A DNA stretch of 64,000 nt from Nocardioidaceae bacterium (GTDB lineage Bacteria; Actinomycetota; Actinomycetes; Propionibacteriales; Nocardioidaceae), in contig JAGIBL010000005.1 of the NCBI GenBank assembly GCA_017744365.1, forward strand, positions 124,001 through 188,000, in the 5' to 3' direction. Below are positions 2,689-51,024 of this stretch, piece by piece. Position 1 is the stretch's first letter; each line of letters opens with the position of its first letter. The notes below the pieces were generated by a model. It was not told the origin of the DNA. It did no database searches and worked only from the letters and a program-made list of their open reading frames with translations. Position numbers and translations under genes: made by a program.

Positions 2689-4415
2689 GCGACTCCCTGT
2701 ACTCGGGGCAGACCGGGTCCCAGCTGGTCGCCACCCTCGTCCGGGTGCGCGAGGCGCTGCAGGCCGTCCGGCTGCCGCTGGACATCCCCGACGTCGAGCC
2801 GGCCCGCAAGGACCTGCCGGAGATGATCGACCAGCTCGAGGACTACGTGCTGCCGCGGCTGATCCAGATCGACGCGCCGCTGCTCACCGTGGTCGGCGGC
2901 TCGACCGGTGCCGGCAAGTCGACGCTGGTGAACTCGCTGGTCGGCGAGCGGGTCACCGAGCCGGGCGTGCTGCGGCCGACGACCCGGTCGCCGGTGCTGG
3001 TGCACAACCCGGCCGACGCCGACTGGTTCGACAAGGCCCGGATCCTGCCCGACCTGGAGCGGACCACCCGTACGTCGGCCGACCCCGGTGCGCTGCAGCT
3101 GGTCGCCTCCGAGGCGATCCCGCAGGGGCTCGCGGTGCTGGACGCGCCGGACATCGACTCGGTCGAGCAGCAGAACCGGGTGCTCGCCGCGCAGCTGCTC
3201 GGCGCGGCCGACCTGTGGCTGTTCGTCACCTCGGCGGCCCGGTACGCCGACCAGGTGCCGTGGGAGTTCCTCAAGCAGGCGGCCGACCGCAGCGCCGCGG
3301 TCGCGGTGGTGCTGGACCGGACCCGCCCGGAGGCGGTGGCCGAGGTCAGTGCGCACCTGGCCCGGATGCTGACCGCCCGGGGCCTGCGGGACTCGCCGCT
3401 GTTCATCGTCCCCGAGGGCGAGGTGGACGACCAGGGGCTGCTGCCGTCGTCGTACGTGCGGGAGATCCGGGGCTGGCTCAGCTCGCTGGCCGCCGACGCG
3501 GACGCCCGCGACTCCGTCGTACGGCAGACCCTGGAGGGCGTGATCCGGTCGCTGTCCACCCGGGCCTACGCGATCGCCGACGCCTGCCACGACCAGGTGG
3601 AGATCGGCGCGCGGCTGCGCCGGGACGCCGACGACGCGTACGCCGCGGCGCTGGCCGAGATCGACCGGGCCAGCGCGGACGGCACCCTGCTGCGTGGCGA
3701 GGTGCTGGCGCGCTGGCAGGAGTTCGTCGGCACCGGCGAGCTGCTCAAGTCGCTGGAGTCGAAGGTGAGCTGGCTGCGCGACCGGGTCGCGAACGCGGTC
3801 AAGGGCCAGCCGCAGCAGGCCACCCGGGTCTCGGTCGCGGTCGAGTCCGGGTTGCAGACGCTGGTGCTGGAGCATGCCGAGGCCGCCGCCGAGCGCACCG
3901 ACGCGGCGTGGCGCTCGATCGCCGCCGGGCGTGAGCTGCTCGACGCCCACCCCGTCGACCTGTCCCGGGCCTCGCGCGAGCTGCGCCAGCAGGCCGAGCG
4001 GACGGTGCGCGACTGGCAGGCCGCGGTGCTGGAGATGGTGCGTACCGAGGGCGCGGACAAGCGCACCACCGCCCGGGTGCTCGCGTACGGCGTCAACGGG
4101 CTCGGGGTCGCGCTGATGATGGTCGTCTTCGCCTCGACCGGCGGCGTGACCGGTGCCGAGGTGGGCATCGCGGGTGGTTCGGCGGTGCTCGGCCAGAAGC
4201 TGCTCGAGGCGGTCTTCGGCGACCAGGCCGTACGACGGCTCGCCGCGAACGCGCGCGCCGACCTGAACCGGCGGATGCAGGTGCTGCTGGAGGCCGAGGA
4301 GAGCCGGTTCACCGACGTGCTCGACGGACTGGGCATCTCCGCGGAGGTCGTCGAGGAGCTCCGGCTGGGAGCCCGGCGGATCGACGATCTGCGGTTCGCG
4401 TCGCACACCGGCTGA
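2685..4415 (+). CDS. Dynamin-like GTPase, first of a tandem pair
   Basis: A 576-aa P-loop GTPase. G1 is GGSTGAGKST at 71-80, G2 is probably the TT at 99-100, and a G3-like DAPD lies at 153-156 in place of DxxG. No canonical N/TKxD is seen; the equivalent position reads VVLDRTRP. The C-terminal half is mostly helical, with a hydrophobic glycine-rich stretch near residues 470-510 that could act as a membrane-contacting paddle. It overlaps the PrsW stop by 4 nt. The following gene is another GTPase. Adjacent GTPase pairs of this kind in actinobacteria include Streptomyces DynA/DynB and mycobacterial IniA/IniC. Role in membrane remodelling or septation is inferred. Confidence 0.82.
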   Translation: MSDSLYSGQTGSQLVATLVRVREALQAVRLPLDIPDVEPARKDLPEMIDQLEDYVLPRLIQIDAPLLTVVGGSTGAGKSTLVNSLVGERVTEPGVLRPTTRSPVLVHNPADADWFDKARILPDLERTTRTSADPGALQLVASEAIPQGLAVLDAPDIDSVEQQNRVLAAQLLGAADLWLFVTSAARYADQVPWEFLKQAADRSAAVAVVLDRTRPEAVAEVSAHLARMLTARGLRDSPLFIVPEGEVDDQGLLPSSYVREIRGWLSSLAADADARDSVVRQTLEGVIRSLSTRAYAIADACHDQVEIGARLRRDADDAYAAALAEIDRASADGTLLRGEVLARWQEFVGTGELLKSLESKVSWLRDRVANAVKGQPQQATRVSVAVESGLQTLVLEHAEAAAERTDAAWRSIAAGRELLDAHPVDLSRASRELRQQAERTVRDWQAAVLEMVRTEGADKRTTARVLAYGVNGLGVALMMVVFASTGGVTGAEVGIAGGSAVLGQKLLEAVFGDQAVRRLAANARADLNRRMQVLLEAEESRFTDVLDGLGISAEVVEELRLGARRIDDLRFASHTG

Positions 4416-9631: not shown

Positions 9632-9662
9632 GAAGGCCCCGGACCGACGGTCCGGGGCCTTC
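9632..9662. terminator. Bidirectional intrinsic-type terminator
   Basis: A perfect 14-bp stem (9632-9645 with 9649-9662) with a 3-nt loop GAC lies between yceI (+) and the thiolase gene (-), which converge. There is no long T run, as is usual in GC-rich actinobacteria. Confidence 0.8.
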
Positions 9663-16521: not shown

Positions 16522-16531
16522 GTTCAACGCC

Positions 16532-16639
16532 GACCCGGCACAAAGGTTCACGTAATTGCGCTGACCCGGCGCAAAGGTGCGAGTACATCCGCACCTTTGC
16601 GCCGGGTCAGCGCTTACACGTGCACTTTTACGCCAGGTC
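16532..16639. repeat. 108-bp four-unit inverted repeat element, copy A
   Basis: Four related 22-nt units (core GACCCGGCGCAAAGGTGC) are arranged as two forward and two reverse. The inner pair forms a perfect 23-bp stem (16559-16581 with 16590-16612) around an 8-nt loop; the outer pair (16532-16553, 16618-16639) is degenerate. It lies between the convergent DUF5130 and pepN genes and overlaps the last three codons and stop of pepN. A second copy of the same length is at 45409-45516, about 85% identical by hand alignment. A terminator role is possible. Confidence 0.85.
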
Positions 16640-19168
16640 GCGCGCCTGACCGGCGAGGTAGCGGGCCACGTCGGCGCGGCCCTCGCGCACGTACCTGACG
16701 GCGCCGGGGTCCGCGGTCGTGGTCGCGAGCCAGGCGTCGACCCGGTCCAGGAGCTCCTGCGAGGCGAGCGCGCGCGGGAAGATGAACTCCAGCGCGGTCG
16801 CGGCCTTGTGGGTGCCGAGGTGCTCCCAGAGCGTGTTCGCGGCCTCCAGGTACTTCTCGACGTACGGCGCCAGCACCTCGTCCTGACCCGACGGGCCGAA
16901 CGCGAGGATGATGGAGCGCGCCGTCTCGTTGGGCGTGTCGGTGCGCACGATCGCGGCGTCCCACGCGGCGGCCTTGGCCTCGGCGGTCGGCTGCGCGGCC
17001 CGAGCGCCGGCGGCGTGCTCCTGGCCCGAGATGGTGTTGTCCCGGGTCAGCTCGGTCTCGATGCGGTCCCCCGCTCGGCCGTTGCGGGCCAGCGCCGTGA
17101 TGAGCACCCAGCGCAGGTCCTGGTCCACGGCCAGGCCGTCGAAGACCAGGGTGCCGTCGAGCATCTCCTCCAGGTCCGCCAGGGCGATCCCGCTCTTCGC
17201 GGCTCCGGCGTAGGTGCGCGCGAAGGTGAGCTGCTGGTCGCTGCCCGCCTCGGCCTGCTCGAGCAGGGTGCGCAGGCCGCGCTCCCACTTCTGCCGCAGG
17301 GCCGGCCGGTTCGCCGGTGCCGAGAACGAGTTGACCGCCTGGGCGGCGTACACCGGGATCCGGCTGATGCCCCAGGAGTCGGTCTCGGTGCCGATGTTGG
17401 CCAGCACCAGCTCGACGAAGTCGCTCGCGCGCATCTCCGCGTCCCGGGTCATGTCCCAGGCCGCGCCCCAGCACAGCGCCCGGGCCAGCGAGTCCTCGAG
17501 CTTGCCGAGGCTGGAGACCAGGGTGGCCAGCGAGCGCTCGTCGAGCCGGATCTTCGCGTAGGTGAGGTCGTCGTCGTTGAGCAGCAGCAGGTCGGGCTGC
17601 TTCTTGCCGACCAGCTCGGTGACCTCGGTGGTGGCGCCCTCGACGTCGAGCTCGATCTGGTCGCGGCGGACCAGGGCGCCGCCGACGGCGTCGTACAGGC
17701 CGATCCGGATCCGGTGCCGGCGCAGCGTCGGCCAGTCCGGGTCCGCGCTCTGCTGCACCGTGAAGGCGCCGTACGTGCCGTCCTCGGCGAGCGTGAACGC
17801 CGGCGTCAGGGTGTTCACCCCGGCGGTCTGCAGCCACTCGGCGGCCCAGCCGTCGAGCTCGCGCCCGGACGCCTTCTCCAGGGCCAGCAGCAGGTCGGAG
17901 AACTCCGAGTTCGCGTAGGCGTGGTCCTTGAAGTACTGCCGCAGCCCGGCCAGGAACGGGTCCAGGCCGACCCACGCCACCAGCTGCTTGAGCACCGAGG
18001 CGCCCTTGGCGTAGGTGATCATGTCGAAGTTGACCTCGACCGCGTGCAGGTCGTAGTTGTCCGCGGCGATCGGATGCGTGCTCGGCAGCTGATCCTGCCG
18101 GTAGCCGGTCTGCTTGCGCGCGTTGGCGAAACCGGTCCAGGCGTCGGTGAACTCGGTGACCTCGGCCTCGGCCCAGTAGCAGGCCCACTCGGCGAACGAC
18201 TCGTTGAGCCAGAGGTCGTCCCACCACTTCATCGTCACCAGGTCGCCGAACCACATGTGCGCCATCTCGTGCAGGATCACGCTGCACCGGAACTCGTAGA
18301 ACGAGCGCGGCTGCCGGGAGCGGGGGAGGTACTCGTCGCGCAGGGTCACGCAGCCCGCGTTCTCCATCGCGCCCATGTTGTACTCCGGCACGTAGAGCTG
18401 GTCGTACTTCTCGAACGGGTAGGGGAAGTCGAACTGCTCCTCGAAGAACGCGAAGCCCTGCTTGGTCAGGTTCACGATCTCCTCGCGGTCGAGGAAGTCG
18501 ACCAGCGACTGGCGGCAGTAGTGGCCCAGCGGGATGGTGCCGAACTTGCCCTCGTAGACGTCCTGGACCTCGTGGTACTCGCCGGCGACCAGGGCGGTGA
18601 TGTAGGTCGACATCTTCTTGGTGGCCGGGAACCGCCACACGGCCTTGCCGCCGCCGACAGCCTCGGGGGAGGGAGTGGGCGCGTTCGAGACGACCTTCCA
18701 GTGCTCCGGCGCGGTGACGACGAAGGTGAAGACGCTCTTGAGGTCGGGCTGCTCGAAGGTGGTGAACACCCGGCGGGCGTCCGGCACCTCGAACTGGCTG
18801 TAGAGGTAGACGCGGTCGTCGACCGGGTCCACGAACCGGTGCAGGCCCTCACCGCTGTGCGAGTAGGTGCAGTCCGCCCGGACCACCAGGGTGTTCTCCG
18901 CCTGCAGGCCGTCGAGCTGGATCCGGCTGTCGGCGTACGCCGTCGCGGGGTCGACCGCGGCGCCGTTGAGGGTGATCTCGTGCACGGTCGCGCCGACGAG
19001 GTCGGCGAAGGTGCTCGCGCCCGGCTGGCTGCTCCGGAAGCTGATCGTGGTGGTGGAGGCGAAGGTCTTGTCGCTGGTCGTGAGGTCGAGCTCGATGGTG
19101 TAGGAGTCGACGTCGAGCAACCCGGCGCGGGTCTGCGCCTCGTCGCGAGTGAGGTTGGTTCCTGGCAT
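16628..19168 (-). CDS. pepN: Aminopeptidase N (M1 family)
   Basis: An 846-aa zinc aminopeptidase that removes N-terminal residues from peptides in the cytoplasm. The substrate motif GAMEN is at 266-270 and the zinc site is HEMAH at 300-304 with E323 (NESFAEW). The N-terminal beta saddle (about 15-200), the thermolysin-like domain (about 205-450) and the C-terminal ERAP1-like helical domain (from about 520) are all present. Length fits actinobacterial PepN. Start codons at 19180 and 19177 are also in frame; 19168 begins the family-typical MPGTNLTRDEA. Its last codons (Asp-Leu-Ala-stop) lie inside the repeat element. Confidence 0.94.
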   Translation of the reverse strand: MPGTNLTRDEAQTRAGLLDVDSYTIELDLTTSDKTFASTTTISFRSSQPGASTFADLVGATVHEITLNGAAVDPATAYADSRIQLDGLQAENTLVVRADCTYSHSGEGLHRFVDPVDDRVYLYSQFEVPDARRVFTTFEQPDLKSVFTFVVTAPEHWKVVSNAPTPSPEAVGGGKAVWRFPATKKMSTYITALVAGEYHEVQDVYEGKFGTIPLGHYCRQSLVDFLDREEIVNLTKQGFAFFEEQFDFPYPFEKYDQLYVPEYNMGAMENAGCVTLRDEYLPRSRQPRSFYEFRCSVILHEMAHMWFGDLVTMKWWDDLWLNESFAEWACYWAEAEVTEFTDAWTGFANARKQTGYRQDQLPSTHPIAADNYDLHAVEVNFDMITYAKGASVLKQLVAWVGLDPFLAGLRQYFKDHAYANSEFSDLLLALEKASGRELDGWAAEWLQTAGVNTLTPAFTLAEDGTYGAFTVQQSADPDWPTLRRHRIRIGLYDAVGGALVRRDQIELDVEGATTEVTELVGKKQPDLLLLNDDDLTYAKIRLDERSLATLVSSLGKLEDSLARALCWGAAWDMTRDAEMRASDFVELVLANIGTETDSWGISRIPVYAAQAVNSFSAPANRPALRQKWERGLRTLLEQAEAGSDQQLTFARTYAGAAKSGIALADLEEMLDGTLVFDGLAVDQDLRWVLITALARNGRAGDRIETELTRDNTISGQEHAAGARAAQPTAEAKAAAWDAAIVRTDTPNETARSIILAFGPSGQDEVLAPYVEKYLEAANTLWEHLGTHKAATALEFIFPRALASQELLDRVDAWLATTTADPGAVRYVREGRADVARYLAGQARDLA

Positions 19169-43145: not shown

Positions 43146-45410
43146 GTGACCCGACGCGCGCGTGAGCAGTACGACGAAGACACCCTGAGCCTGAGCAAGC
43201 CGCGGACCAAGGCGGCCGGGGTCGAGGCCGTCGCGGTCTCGCTGAACCGGGCGCTGGAGCAGATGAGCCCGCTGCGGGCGGCCCGGGCGCTGTCCCGGGT
43301 CAACCACCGGCACGGGTTCGACTGCCCGGGCTGCGCCTGGCCGGAGGAGAACGGCCGCCGCCGGCCTGCCGAGTTCTGCGAGAACGGCGCCAAGGCCGTC
43401 GCCGAGGAGGCCACCCAGCGCGTCGTGGACCGCTCCTTCTTCGCCCGGCACAGCCTCGACGACCTGCGCGGTCGCTCGGGATACTGGCTCGGGCAGCAGG
43501 GCCGGCTCGCCGAGCCGATGGTGCTGCGCCCGGGAGCGACGCACTACGAGCCGATCTCCTGGGAGGACGCCTACGGACTGGTGGCGTCCTCGCTGCGCGG
43601 ACTCGGGTCGCCCGACGAGGCGGTCTTCTACACCTCCGGCCGCACGTCGAACGAGGCCGCGTTCCTCTACCAGCTGCTGGTCCGCTCCTTCGGCACCAAC
43701 AACCTGCCGGACTGCTCGAACATGTGCCACGAGTCCTCGGGCACCGCGCTGACCGAGCAGATCGGCATCGGCAAGGGCTCGGTCTCCATCGACGACGTCG
43801 CCGACGCCGACCTCATCCTCATCGCCGGGCAGAACCCGGGCACCAACCACCCGCGGATGCTGGCCACCCTGGAGAAGGCCAAGGCCCGGGGGGCGCGCAT
43901 CATCGCGATCAACCCGCTGCCCGAGGCCGGGCTGCTCGGCTTCAAGGACCCGCAGAAGGTGGGTGGCGTGCTCGGTCACGCCACCCCGATCGCGGACGAG
44001 TTCCTGCAGATCCGGATCGGGGGAGACCTGGCCCTGTTCCAGGGACTCGGCCGGCTGCTGGTGGAGCGCGACGCCGTCGACCACGACTTCGTCGCCGCGC
44101 ACACCGCCGGCTGGTCGTCGTACGAGGAGAGCGTGCGGAAGGTCGACCTGGACACCGTCCTCGAGGCGACCGGCCTGACGATGCAGCAGCTCGAGGAGAC
44201 CGCGGACGCGCTGGCCCGCTCGGAGCGGACCGTGGCGTGCTGGGCGATGGGGCTCACCCAGCAGCGGCACGCGGTCGCGACCATCGCCGAGTTCACCAAC
44301 CTGCTGCTGATGCGGGGGATGATCGGCAAGCCCGGCGCCGGGGTGTGCCCGGTGCGTGGCCACTCCAACGTGCAGGGCGACCGGACCATGGGCATCTTCG
44401 AGCGGATGCCGGAGGCGTTCCTGGCCGCTCTCGACGCCGAGTTCTCGATCACCTCGCCGCGGGTGCACGGGTTCGACACGGTCGCGGCGATCCGGGCGAT
44501 GCGCGACGGGCAGGCGAGGGTGTTCGTCGGGATGGGCGGCAACTTCGCGAGCGCGACGCCCGACACCGAGGTCACCGAGGCGGCGCTGTCCTCCTGCGAG
44601 CTGACCGTGCAGGTCTCCACCAAGCTCAACCGCTCGCACGTGGTCACCGGCCGGACCGCGCTGATCCTGCCGACGCTCGGCCGCTCCGACTCCGACCTGC
44701 ACGACGGGACGCGGCAGTCGGTCTCGGTCGAGGACTCGATGTCGATGGTGCACCTGTCCACCGGGCGCCTCGAGCCGGTCTCGTCCCAGCTGAGGAGCGA
44801 GCCGACCATCGTCTGCGAGCTGGCTGAGGCGCTGCTGGGACCCGAGCACCCGGTGCCGTGGGCGCGGTTCGCGCACGACTACGACGCCATCCGGGACTCG
44901 ATCGCGCGGGTCGTCCCCGGGTGCGAGGACTACAACCGCCGGGTGCGCACCAAGAACGGCTTCCAGCTGCCGCACCCGCCGCGGGACAGCCGGACCTTCG
45001 TGACCCTGACCGGCAAGGCGAACTTCGCGGTCAACGACCTGGAGTGGGTGCCCGTGCCCGAGGGCCGGCTGGTGCTGCAGACGATGCGCAGCCACGACCA
45101 GTACAACACCACCATCTACGGGCTGGACGACCGGTACCGCGGGGTGAAGGGAGACCGCCGCGTCGTCCTGGTCAACCCCGCGGACCTGGCGGAGCTGGGC
45201 TTCGCCGCAGGGGACACCGTGGACGTGATCTCGGAGTGGGAGGACGGCGAGCGCCGGGTCTCCGGCTTCACCCTCGTCGGCTACGACACCCCGCGCGGGA
45301 ACGCCGCCGCGTACTACCCCGAGACCAACCCCCTGGTCCCGCTCGACCACACCGCCCGCGGCTCGAACACCCCCGTCTCCAAGGCGATCGTCATCCGCCT
45401 CGAACGCTGA
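43146..45410 (+). CDS. FdhF/YdeP family molybdopterin oxidoreductase
   Basis: A 754-aa molybdo-bis-MGD enzyme of the YdeP type, which resembles formate dehydrogenase alpha chains. The N-terminus has CPGC and CENG cysteines ([18 protein letters not shown]), possibly for an iron-sulfur cluster. MGD-binding segments include [42 protein letters not shown], and a C-terminal molydopterin dinucleotide-binding domain ([31 protein letters not shown]). The true reaction is unknown; E. coli YdeP contributes to acid resistance. Its last Arg codon and stop (CGCTGA) coincide with the start of the inverted-repeat element copy B. Confidence 0.92.
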
Positions 45411-45516
45411 CCCGTCGCAAAGGTGCACGTAATTGCGCTGACCTGGCGCAAAGGTGCACGTACACGTGCACCTTTGCGCCAGGTCAGCGTCAACACGTGC
45501 ACCTTTGCGCCGGGTC
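45409..45516. repeat. 108-bp four-unit inverted repeat element, copy B
   Basis: Same architecture as copy A. The inner stem is a perfect 26 bp (45436-45461 with 45464-45489) with a 2-nt loop. The outer units (45409-45430, 45495-45516) pair with one mismatch. It lies between the convergent FdhF/YdeP and alcohol dehydrogenase genes. A C-to-T change in the left inner arm relative to copy A is matched by G-to-A in the right arm, which keeps pairing intact. Confidence 0.88.
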
Positions 45517-45520
45517 GGGC

Positions 45521-50407: not shown

Positions 50408-50423
50408 GGCTGACCGAACCACG

Positions 50424-50484
50424 AGGCCTGATTCGGCGGACCAGAAGGCCTGATTCGGCGGACCAGAAGGCCTGATTCGGCGGG
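50424..50484. repeat. 22-bp tandem repeat, about 2.8 copies
   Basis: The 22-bp unit begins AGGCCTGATTCGG and ends ACCAGA. Units lie at 50424-50445 and 50446-50467 (identical) and a partial at 50468-50484. They fill almost the whole gap between ndk and the convergent DUF937 gene. Confidence 0.85.
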
Positions 50485-51024
50485 CTAGCGGCGGCCGCGT
50501 CCCAGCAGGCCGCCGAGGACGTCGCCGATGATCGAGCCGGCGCCCTGGCCGCCGCCCGATCCCTGGGACGCGCCCTTGAGGACCTCCTCGAGGATCGAGC
50601 CGACGACGCCGCCGCCCGCGTTGTCTCCCGCGCTGCCGGAGCCGGCCCGCCCGCCGACCTGCTTGGCCAGGTAGGCGAGCACGAGGGGCGCGAGCAGCGG
50701 GATCAGCTTCTTCACCAGGTCGCCCGAGACGCCCTGGACACCCCCGAGCTGCTGCACGACCTGGTCCTGGGAGTCGCCGAAGATGTGGCCGGCGATCTTC
50801 GCGCCGTCGGCCGGGTCCGGGTCCCGCTGGCCTTCGTGCTGGGTGAGCGCCTCGGCGATGGAGTCCGCACCCGCGGAGTCCTGGGCGTTCGCGTGCAGCC
50901 CCCCGAGCAGGGCGGGGATCGCGGCCTCGGCGGCGGAGCGTACCGAGGCGGGGTCGGCGCCCAGCCGGGCGGCGAGGTCGTCGAGGGGGAGTCCGGCCAG
51001 GATGTCGGTGGTGGGGTCGCTCAT
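50485..51024 (-). CDS. DUF937 domain protein
   Basis: A 179-aa protein matching DUF937: an N-terminal helical segment (LDDLAARLGADPASVRSAAEAAIPALLGGLHANA), a middle Q/D/V-rich region (FGDSQDQVVQQLGG) and hydrophobic LVKKLIPLLAPLVLAYLAKQV. The C-terminal 45 residues are Gly/Ser-rich with GSILEEVLKG and GSIIGDVLGGLLG, as in many actinobacterial members. Cytoplasmic, function unknown (related to YidB). Divergent from mreB across a 156-bp gap. Confidence 0.85.
   Translation of the reverse strand: MSDPTTDILAGLPLDDLAARLGADPASVRSAAEAAIPALLGGLHANAQDSAGADSIAEALTQHEGQRDPDPADGAKIAGHIFGDSQDQVVQQLGGVQGVSGDLVKKLIPLLAPLVLAYLAKQVGGRAGSGSAGDNAGGGVVGSILEEVLKGASQGSGGGQGAGSIIGDVLGGLLGRGRR

Follow-up and report, generated by a model that had tools for sequence, protein, structure and literature searches.

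Dispersed four-unit inverted repeats in a Nocardioidaceae genome share their unit with arrays that flank a gene for an AbiEi/Vsr-like protein

We have identified in a Nocardioidaceae bacterium a family of 108-bp inverted-repeat elements whose unit sequence also flanks a gene for a predicted DNA-binding nuclease. The same pairing of gene and repeat, each time with its own repeat sequences, occurs in relatives and points to an undescribed genetic system. On the best reading, this is a nuclease-repeat system like REPIN/RAYT but unrelated to it, with arrays that double as terminators. Two copies of the element, A and B, are found in the window, that is, the whole stretch of 64,000 nucleotides (nt) that was analyzed (GenBank assembly GCA_017744365.1, contig JAGIBL010000005.1, positions 124,001 to 188,000 of the forward strand).

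Elements of the family and their position at gene ends

Copy A spans 16528-16643 including its CGCY ends and, like copy B at 45405-45520, is a solitary element of four units in the order ++-- that is assigned to neither strand. The plus-strand units of copy A lie at 16532-16549 (two mismatches to GACCCGGCGCAAAGGTGC) and 16563-16580 (exact), and its minus-strand units at 16591-16608 (exact) and 16622-16639 (three mismatches; the altered bases create TTA, with which the right-hand gene stops). In copy B, units at 45409-45426 and 45440-45457 on the plus strand face units at 45468-45485 and 45499-45516 on the minus strand; the last is exact, and the left-hand gene has its stop codon in the TGA at 45408-45410. 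Unit starts are 31, 28 and 31 nt apart in both copies, and the window holds eight matches to GACCCGGCGCAAAGGTGC at up to 3 mismatches where 0.12 are expected. The two equal 108-nt layouts described in the original prediction are both present, and its figure of about 85% identity agrees with 92 identical positions out of 108 and 85% in an alignment over 118 nt. Single-strand folding gave -87.4 kcal/mol for A (z -14.1) and -103.4 kcal/mol for B (z -16.4) relative to shuffles. Long inner helices had also been predicted and exist, although the longest unbroken innermost helix measures 24 bp in A and 25 bp in B rather than 23 and 26 bp. Against Rfam, the hairpin gave nothing beyond sub-threshold microRNA matches, which we regard as chance. 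As had been noted, both copies separate genes that face each other, a TPM/DUF5130 gene and an M1 peptidase gene for A and a molybdopterin oxidoreductase gene and a zinc-dehydrogenase gene for B.

The search that the original prediction proposed, with the unit through the genome and its relatives and with counts of copies and gene orientations, yielded an intergenic family with a convergent bias and not a mere pair without positional preference. Within the 4.76-Mb host genome (G000), the 12-mer GCGCAAAGGTGC occurs 62 times (reversed control, 0), and with up to 3 mismatches allowed a degenerate 18-mer matches at 155 places (control, 9). BLAST with copy B and a unit scan agree on 37 loci, one of which is the gene locus while the other 36 are solitary elements. 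An 18-nt core, CGCY-GACCYGGCGCAAAGGTGC, forms the unit and recurs with a period of 31-32 nt in a set that faces an inverted set. Exact ++-- order was found in 28 of the 36 solitary elements, allowing 4 mismatches per unit, and three or five units are recognizable in the other 8. BLAST with copy B also showed that copies of this genome resemble each other along the whole element, spacers included. In the 23 other genomes of the genus that were examined, the unit gave at most 3 matches at up to 2 mismatches, a control-like number.

Gene orientation was assigned with our own codon-based gene caller. Elements of this first family lie in convergent gaps in 26/36 cases, in tandem gaps in 9/36 and in a divergent gap in 1/36, compared with 33/269 convergent among the other gene pairs at the same loci (p 1.5e-16). 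Convergent placement was replicated by the second family of the host genome (9/16) and by elements in the related genomes G019 (15/26) and G020 (7/18). The unit core lies -2 to +9 nt from the stop codon in 101 of 149 element sides facing a gene 3' end. Stops are arranged in three ways: directly before CGCY, as a TGA within CGCTGACC, or through an altered unit base as in copy A. Part of this closeness is genome packing, since convergent genes in this genome are closely spaced even where they have no element between them (median 14 nt). A TAG or TAA has been gained at about the same unit position in L044, L056, L060, L038, L046 and at window positions 16628-16630 (CAA to TAG/TAA and neighboring changes), and in these elements it is the stop of the adjoining gene. 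Targeting of tRNA genes was considered and rejected, as five sampled loci of the 37 contained none.

Agreement between the inner arms is higher within copies than between them (0.927 versus 0.871; 0/5000). This could result from selection for an RNA or DNA hairpin, or from one arm correcting the other.

The linked gene and its relatives

The first-family unit flanks one gene, G000:C11:274693-275634, outside the window, as inward-pointing inverted arrays. From profiles and fold matches, its product is predicted to combine an AbiEi-like DNA-binding half with a Vsr/I-Bth0305I-like nuclease half. In Pfam, AbiEi_4 scored above the cutoff and MTES_1575 and DUF559 below it. The N-terminal two thirds are AbiEi-like (padloc, to 3.6e-14; structure match 6y8q), and fold comparison returned Vsr and AbiEi, in keeping with a Vsr-like nuclease fold; a profile search against sequences of solved structures gave 0 matches. 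The acidic and histidine residues of this Vsr/EDxHD-type nuclease are invariant across 14 sequences. The gene is situated between era-like and ABC-transporter genes, and its four neighbors, two per side, are SIP, era-like, ABC ATPase and ABC permease genes. None of these four is an AbiEii partner; the downstream ABC ATPase does match AAA_21, described as putative AbiEii, but matches ABC_tran far more strongly.

Relatives of the gene were found in 24/24 genomes of the genus. A first set of 30 loci was examined for direct repeat arrays, along with a named set of the best 80 of 322 relatives, mostly from Nocardioides and Marmoricola, which overlaps the first (L200 and G019, for example, share a 450,664-bp contig). 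Arrays above threshold flank the gene on both sides at 17 of the 30 loci and on one side at 7; in the named set they occur on both sides at 46 and on at least one side at 69. For the first set, the array score reached at most 13.5 in shuffled flanks and 18.5 in 148 other segments. Most arrays have a period of 32/31 or 22/21 nt, which corresponds to three or two helical turns. Units are gene-specific: they share a front resembling CGCYGASNSGKC but vary at the rear, and unit distance tracks protein distance (r 0.45, 0/20000 permutations; 21 genes, with units chosen by hand).

As a prediction test, seven units read only from arrays beside other genes were searched, by means of three degenerate patterns, in all 24 genomes. 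One pattern gave 76 matches in G019 and 44 in G020 and none in the remaining 22 genomes; another gave 40 in G000, 25 in G013 and 32 in G014 and none in the remaining 21; the third gave 14 in G015 and 10 in G020 and none in the remaining 22. Matches were thus confined to the genomes of the source genes, reversed controls gave 0, and among the matches listed only 3-6 for each unit (2 in G013) are close to the gene. Because units taken from the arrays of other genes recur there, G000 holds a second family, whose gene is G000:C7:499920-500837. Two further units come from arrays beside genes G000:C9:274741 and G000:C7:1054566 of the same genome.

Some orthologous sites bear different unit families in different species. 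The site between the left-hand gene of L037 and the pyruvate kinase gene could be scored, by eye, in 22 of the 24 genomes. Solitary arrays of several unit families occupy it in G000, G013, G014, G016, G019 and G020, partial or decayed arrays in G005 and G017, and the nuclease-like gene itself in G015 and G003 (with a weak array in G003), while the other 12 have no recognizable array. The occurrence of gene-bearing and gene-free forms at one site would be compatible with homing. At a second site, available in 19/24 genomes, elements are present in G000 and G019 and a short remnant in G017; in the remaining genomes, several of which have other neighbors, no element was recognized. The units at site 3 (L135/L186) are related rather than of different families, and at sites 4 and 5 the element is absent in another species. 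Hot spots would explain what is seen at these sites, but so would inheritance in which units were replaced, and the frequency of shared sites cannot be estimated from loci chosen for holding elements. Between 9614 and 9676 of the window, G000 has an ordinary hairpin between convergent genes (9632-9662, neither strand), where G019 (L134) and G013 (L109) carry array elements. In view of this site, a terminator role, raised in the original prediction, is plausible.

Candidate mechanism and alternatives

We consider it fairly probable that each 108-bp element is a cluster of sites recognized by the nuclease-like protein, and that the elements spread by cut-and-repair copying. The AbiEi-like half would bind the phased units of an array, and the Vsr/homing-type half would cut or nick at arrays or at targets. 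Repair would then copy arrays to new places or overwrite older ones with them, which is proposed to be why each genome carries its own family. Copies would persist at the 3' ends of genes, and their long hairpin may act there as a two-way terminator. A broader generalization is a good deal more tentative: a widespread actinobacterial class of intragenomic selfish systems in which a homing-type nuclease gene is centered in its own palindromic multi-unit site, the nuclease drives copying of gene-free sites, and arrays at conserved terminators are replaced when specificity changes, so that host terminators are rewritten.

Several observations weigh against the cut-and-repair reading. No target-site duplication was found among 28 and 11 copies, in which the longest shared flank word was 3.21 and 3.45, compared with 3.27 and 3.55 after shuffling; this is also evidence against a cut-and-paste mode of insertion that leaves staggered ends. 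No U-run is visible after the stem. Outer arms show no covariation effect (0.810 within copies, 0.830 between), which leaves overall selection for the hairpin unproven. Arrays above threshold are missing at 6/30 and 11/80 gene loci; 12/320 control segments pass the threshold. The inverted score of upstream against downstream flanks exceeds the 99th percentile of mismatched pairs in 0/80 loci, a control not taken as proof because near-identical loci inflate the mismatched pairs. Gene-array linkage is weak in a farther genus, g4 (3/24 gene loci), and all site comparisons are between species, with no empty and filled pair within one.

It is also conceivable, if rather unlikely, that the protein binds arrays without spreading them, as a chromosome- or terminator-binding factor whose stations lie, for instance, at converging transcription, and that the nuclease is rarely active or acts elsewhere. 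The fixed helical phasing (31/32, 22 and 42 nt) and the strong convergent 3'-end placement would suit such a factor, Vsr-like folds occur also in RNA-binding RAP domains according to the fold matches, and synteny of the gene beside era in three genomes is what a domesticated gene would show. The invariant nuclease residues argue otherwise, and the likeness of whole elements within a genome, together with families private to each genome, calls for a copying process. We give little credence to the view that some unrelated enzyme moves the arrays, as mobile or functional terminators, with AbiEi/Vsr-like genes as passengers at array-flanked sites. Strong hairpins at 3' ends, and an array pair around a different small gene in G020 (L180), could be explained in this way, but arrays with gene-specific units flank this kind of gene in 69/80 named loci (the genome was not searched for transposases) and the unit co-varies with the protein. 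Similarly improbable is a self/non-self or addiction device, in which the nuclease might be held or titrated by its own arrays and attack array-less DNA, or in which loss might be punished; AbiEi similarity, intact nuclease residues and differences in families between species would agree with it, and the lack of an AbiEii partner among the checked neighbors on either side counts against it.

REPIN/RAYT, the nearest analogue, is described as having many palindromic intergenic elements per genome, linked to a gene with the same flanking repeats, a 3'-end bias, and families that differ between species (PMC3733652, PMC8049555), with a GTAG tetranucleotide foot beside the palindrome (PMC3733652). 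A gene flanked by repeats that are dispersed in the genome is common to both. The differences are that units here read CGCY-GACC..GTGC in a phased array, that the enzyme is AbiEi plus Vsr-like rather than HUH/Tyr, and that several genes with different units occur in one genome. The REP/BIME membership considered in the original prediction was accordingly rejected, as a GTAG foot is absent from the units and the linked gene encodes an AbiEi/Vsr-like protein and not a HUH tyrosine transposase (the rest of the genome was not searched for a RAYT gene). CGTC-tagged REPs are short palindromic repeats at 3' ends for which no linked transposase is reported (PMC3733652); one unit group here contains GAGGCGTC, with the tag inside the unit, in a comparison made by description only. 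I-Bth0305I and other Vsr-like nucleases differ from the present system in its dispersed multi-unit arrays and AbiEi-like DNA-binding half. The N-terminal part resembles the AbiEi antitoxin of AbiE, a type IV toxin-antitoxin system, but it is fused to a nuclease and no gene for the AbiEii nucleotidyltransferase is among the four neighbors. Miniature inverted-repeat transposable elements (MITEs) are likewise small, non-coding, inverted and dispersed, and a gene-bearing form exists here; in contrast, the ends are phased unit arrays and the product is no known transposase, and assignment to MITEs was rejected for want of a target-site duplication. Identity with IS110 was also rejected, its hits being weak and below the cutoff and unsupported by fold matches. 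Literature searches, which did not extend to subscription papers and preprints, turned up no report linking AbiEi/DUF559-type proteins to dispersed repeats (papers covered include PMC3710099 and PMC12907096).

Novelty rests on the fact that neither the enzyme nor the repeat is related to that of the nearest analogue; judged only by function, the system would be another form of enzyme-linked dispersed repeats. It offers a candidate role for a large group of AbiEi_4/DUF559-type proteins without known function, present in all 24 genomes of the genus that were examined, and would mean that the REPIN/RAYT principle arose a second time from unrelated components. Since every gene comes with a unit of its own and with dozens of existing sites, direct tests of the specificity code, of nuclease action and of copying are feasible. 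Should the arrays terminate transcription, terminators throughout the chromosome would be shaped by a nuclease system.

Further elements and a farther genus

A third window element lies at 50415-50488 on the minus strand, between convergent ndk and DUF937 genes. It consists of three 22-nt units of another family, the third of this genome, whose unit also flanks G000:C9:274741-275568 (locus L329), a second gene of the nuclease-like kind.

In G017, the gene beside era is broken (L077), and only short palindromic remnants are seen at two compared sites. Could the arrays have decayed there after the gene was lost? At L180 (G020:C1:1776300-1782900), plus and minus arrays at 2922-3649 lie around a small gene unlike the nuclease genes, as if it were another passenger; this gene looks YqeY-like.

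Genus g4, of the same class, has a palindrome family, GAGCAGACGYARAA, with 112 matches in G173 and 7, 3 and 14 in the other three g4 genomes; three other genomes tried and the controls gave 0. At L331, one g4 relative of the gene has such palindromes on both sides. At four places in G173 (G173:C1:884142-885836, 900628-902328, 2924350-2926041 and 4357735-4359427), the palindrome halves are about 1.68 kb apart rather than 42 nt, as if an insert of the same size lay within the palindrome.
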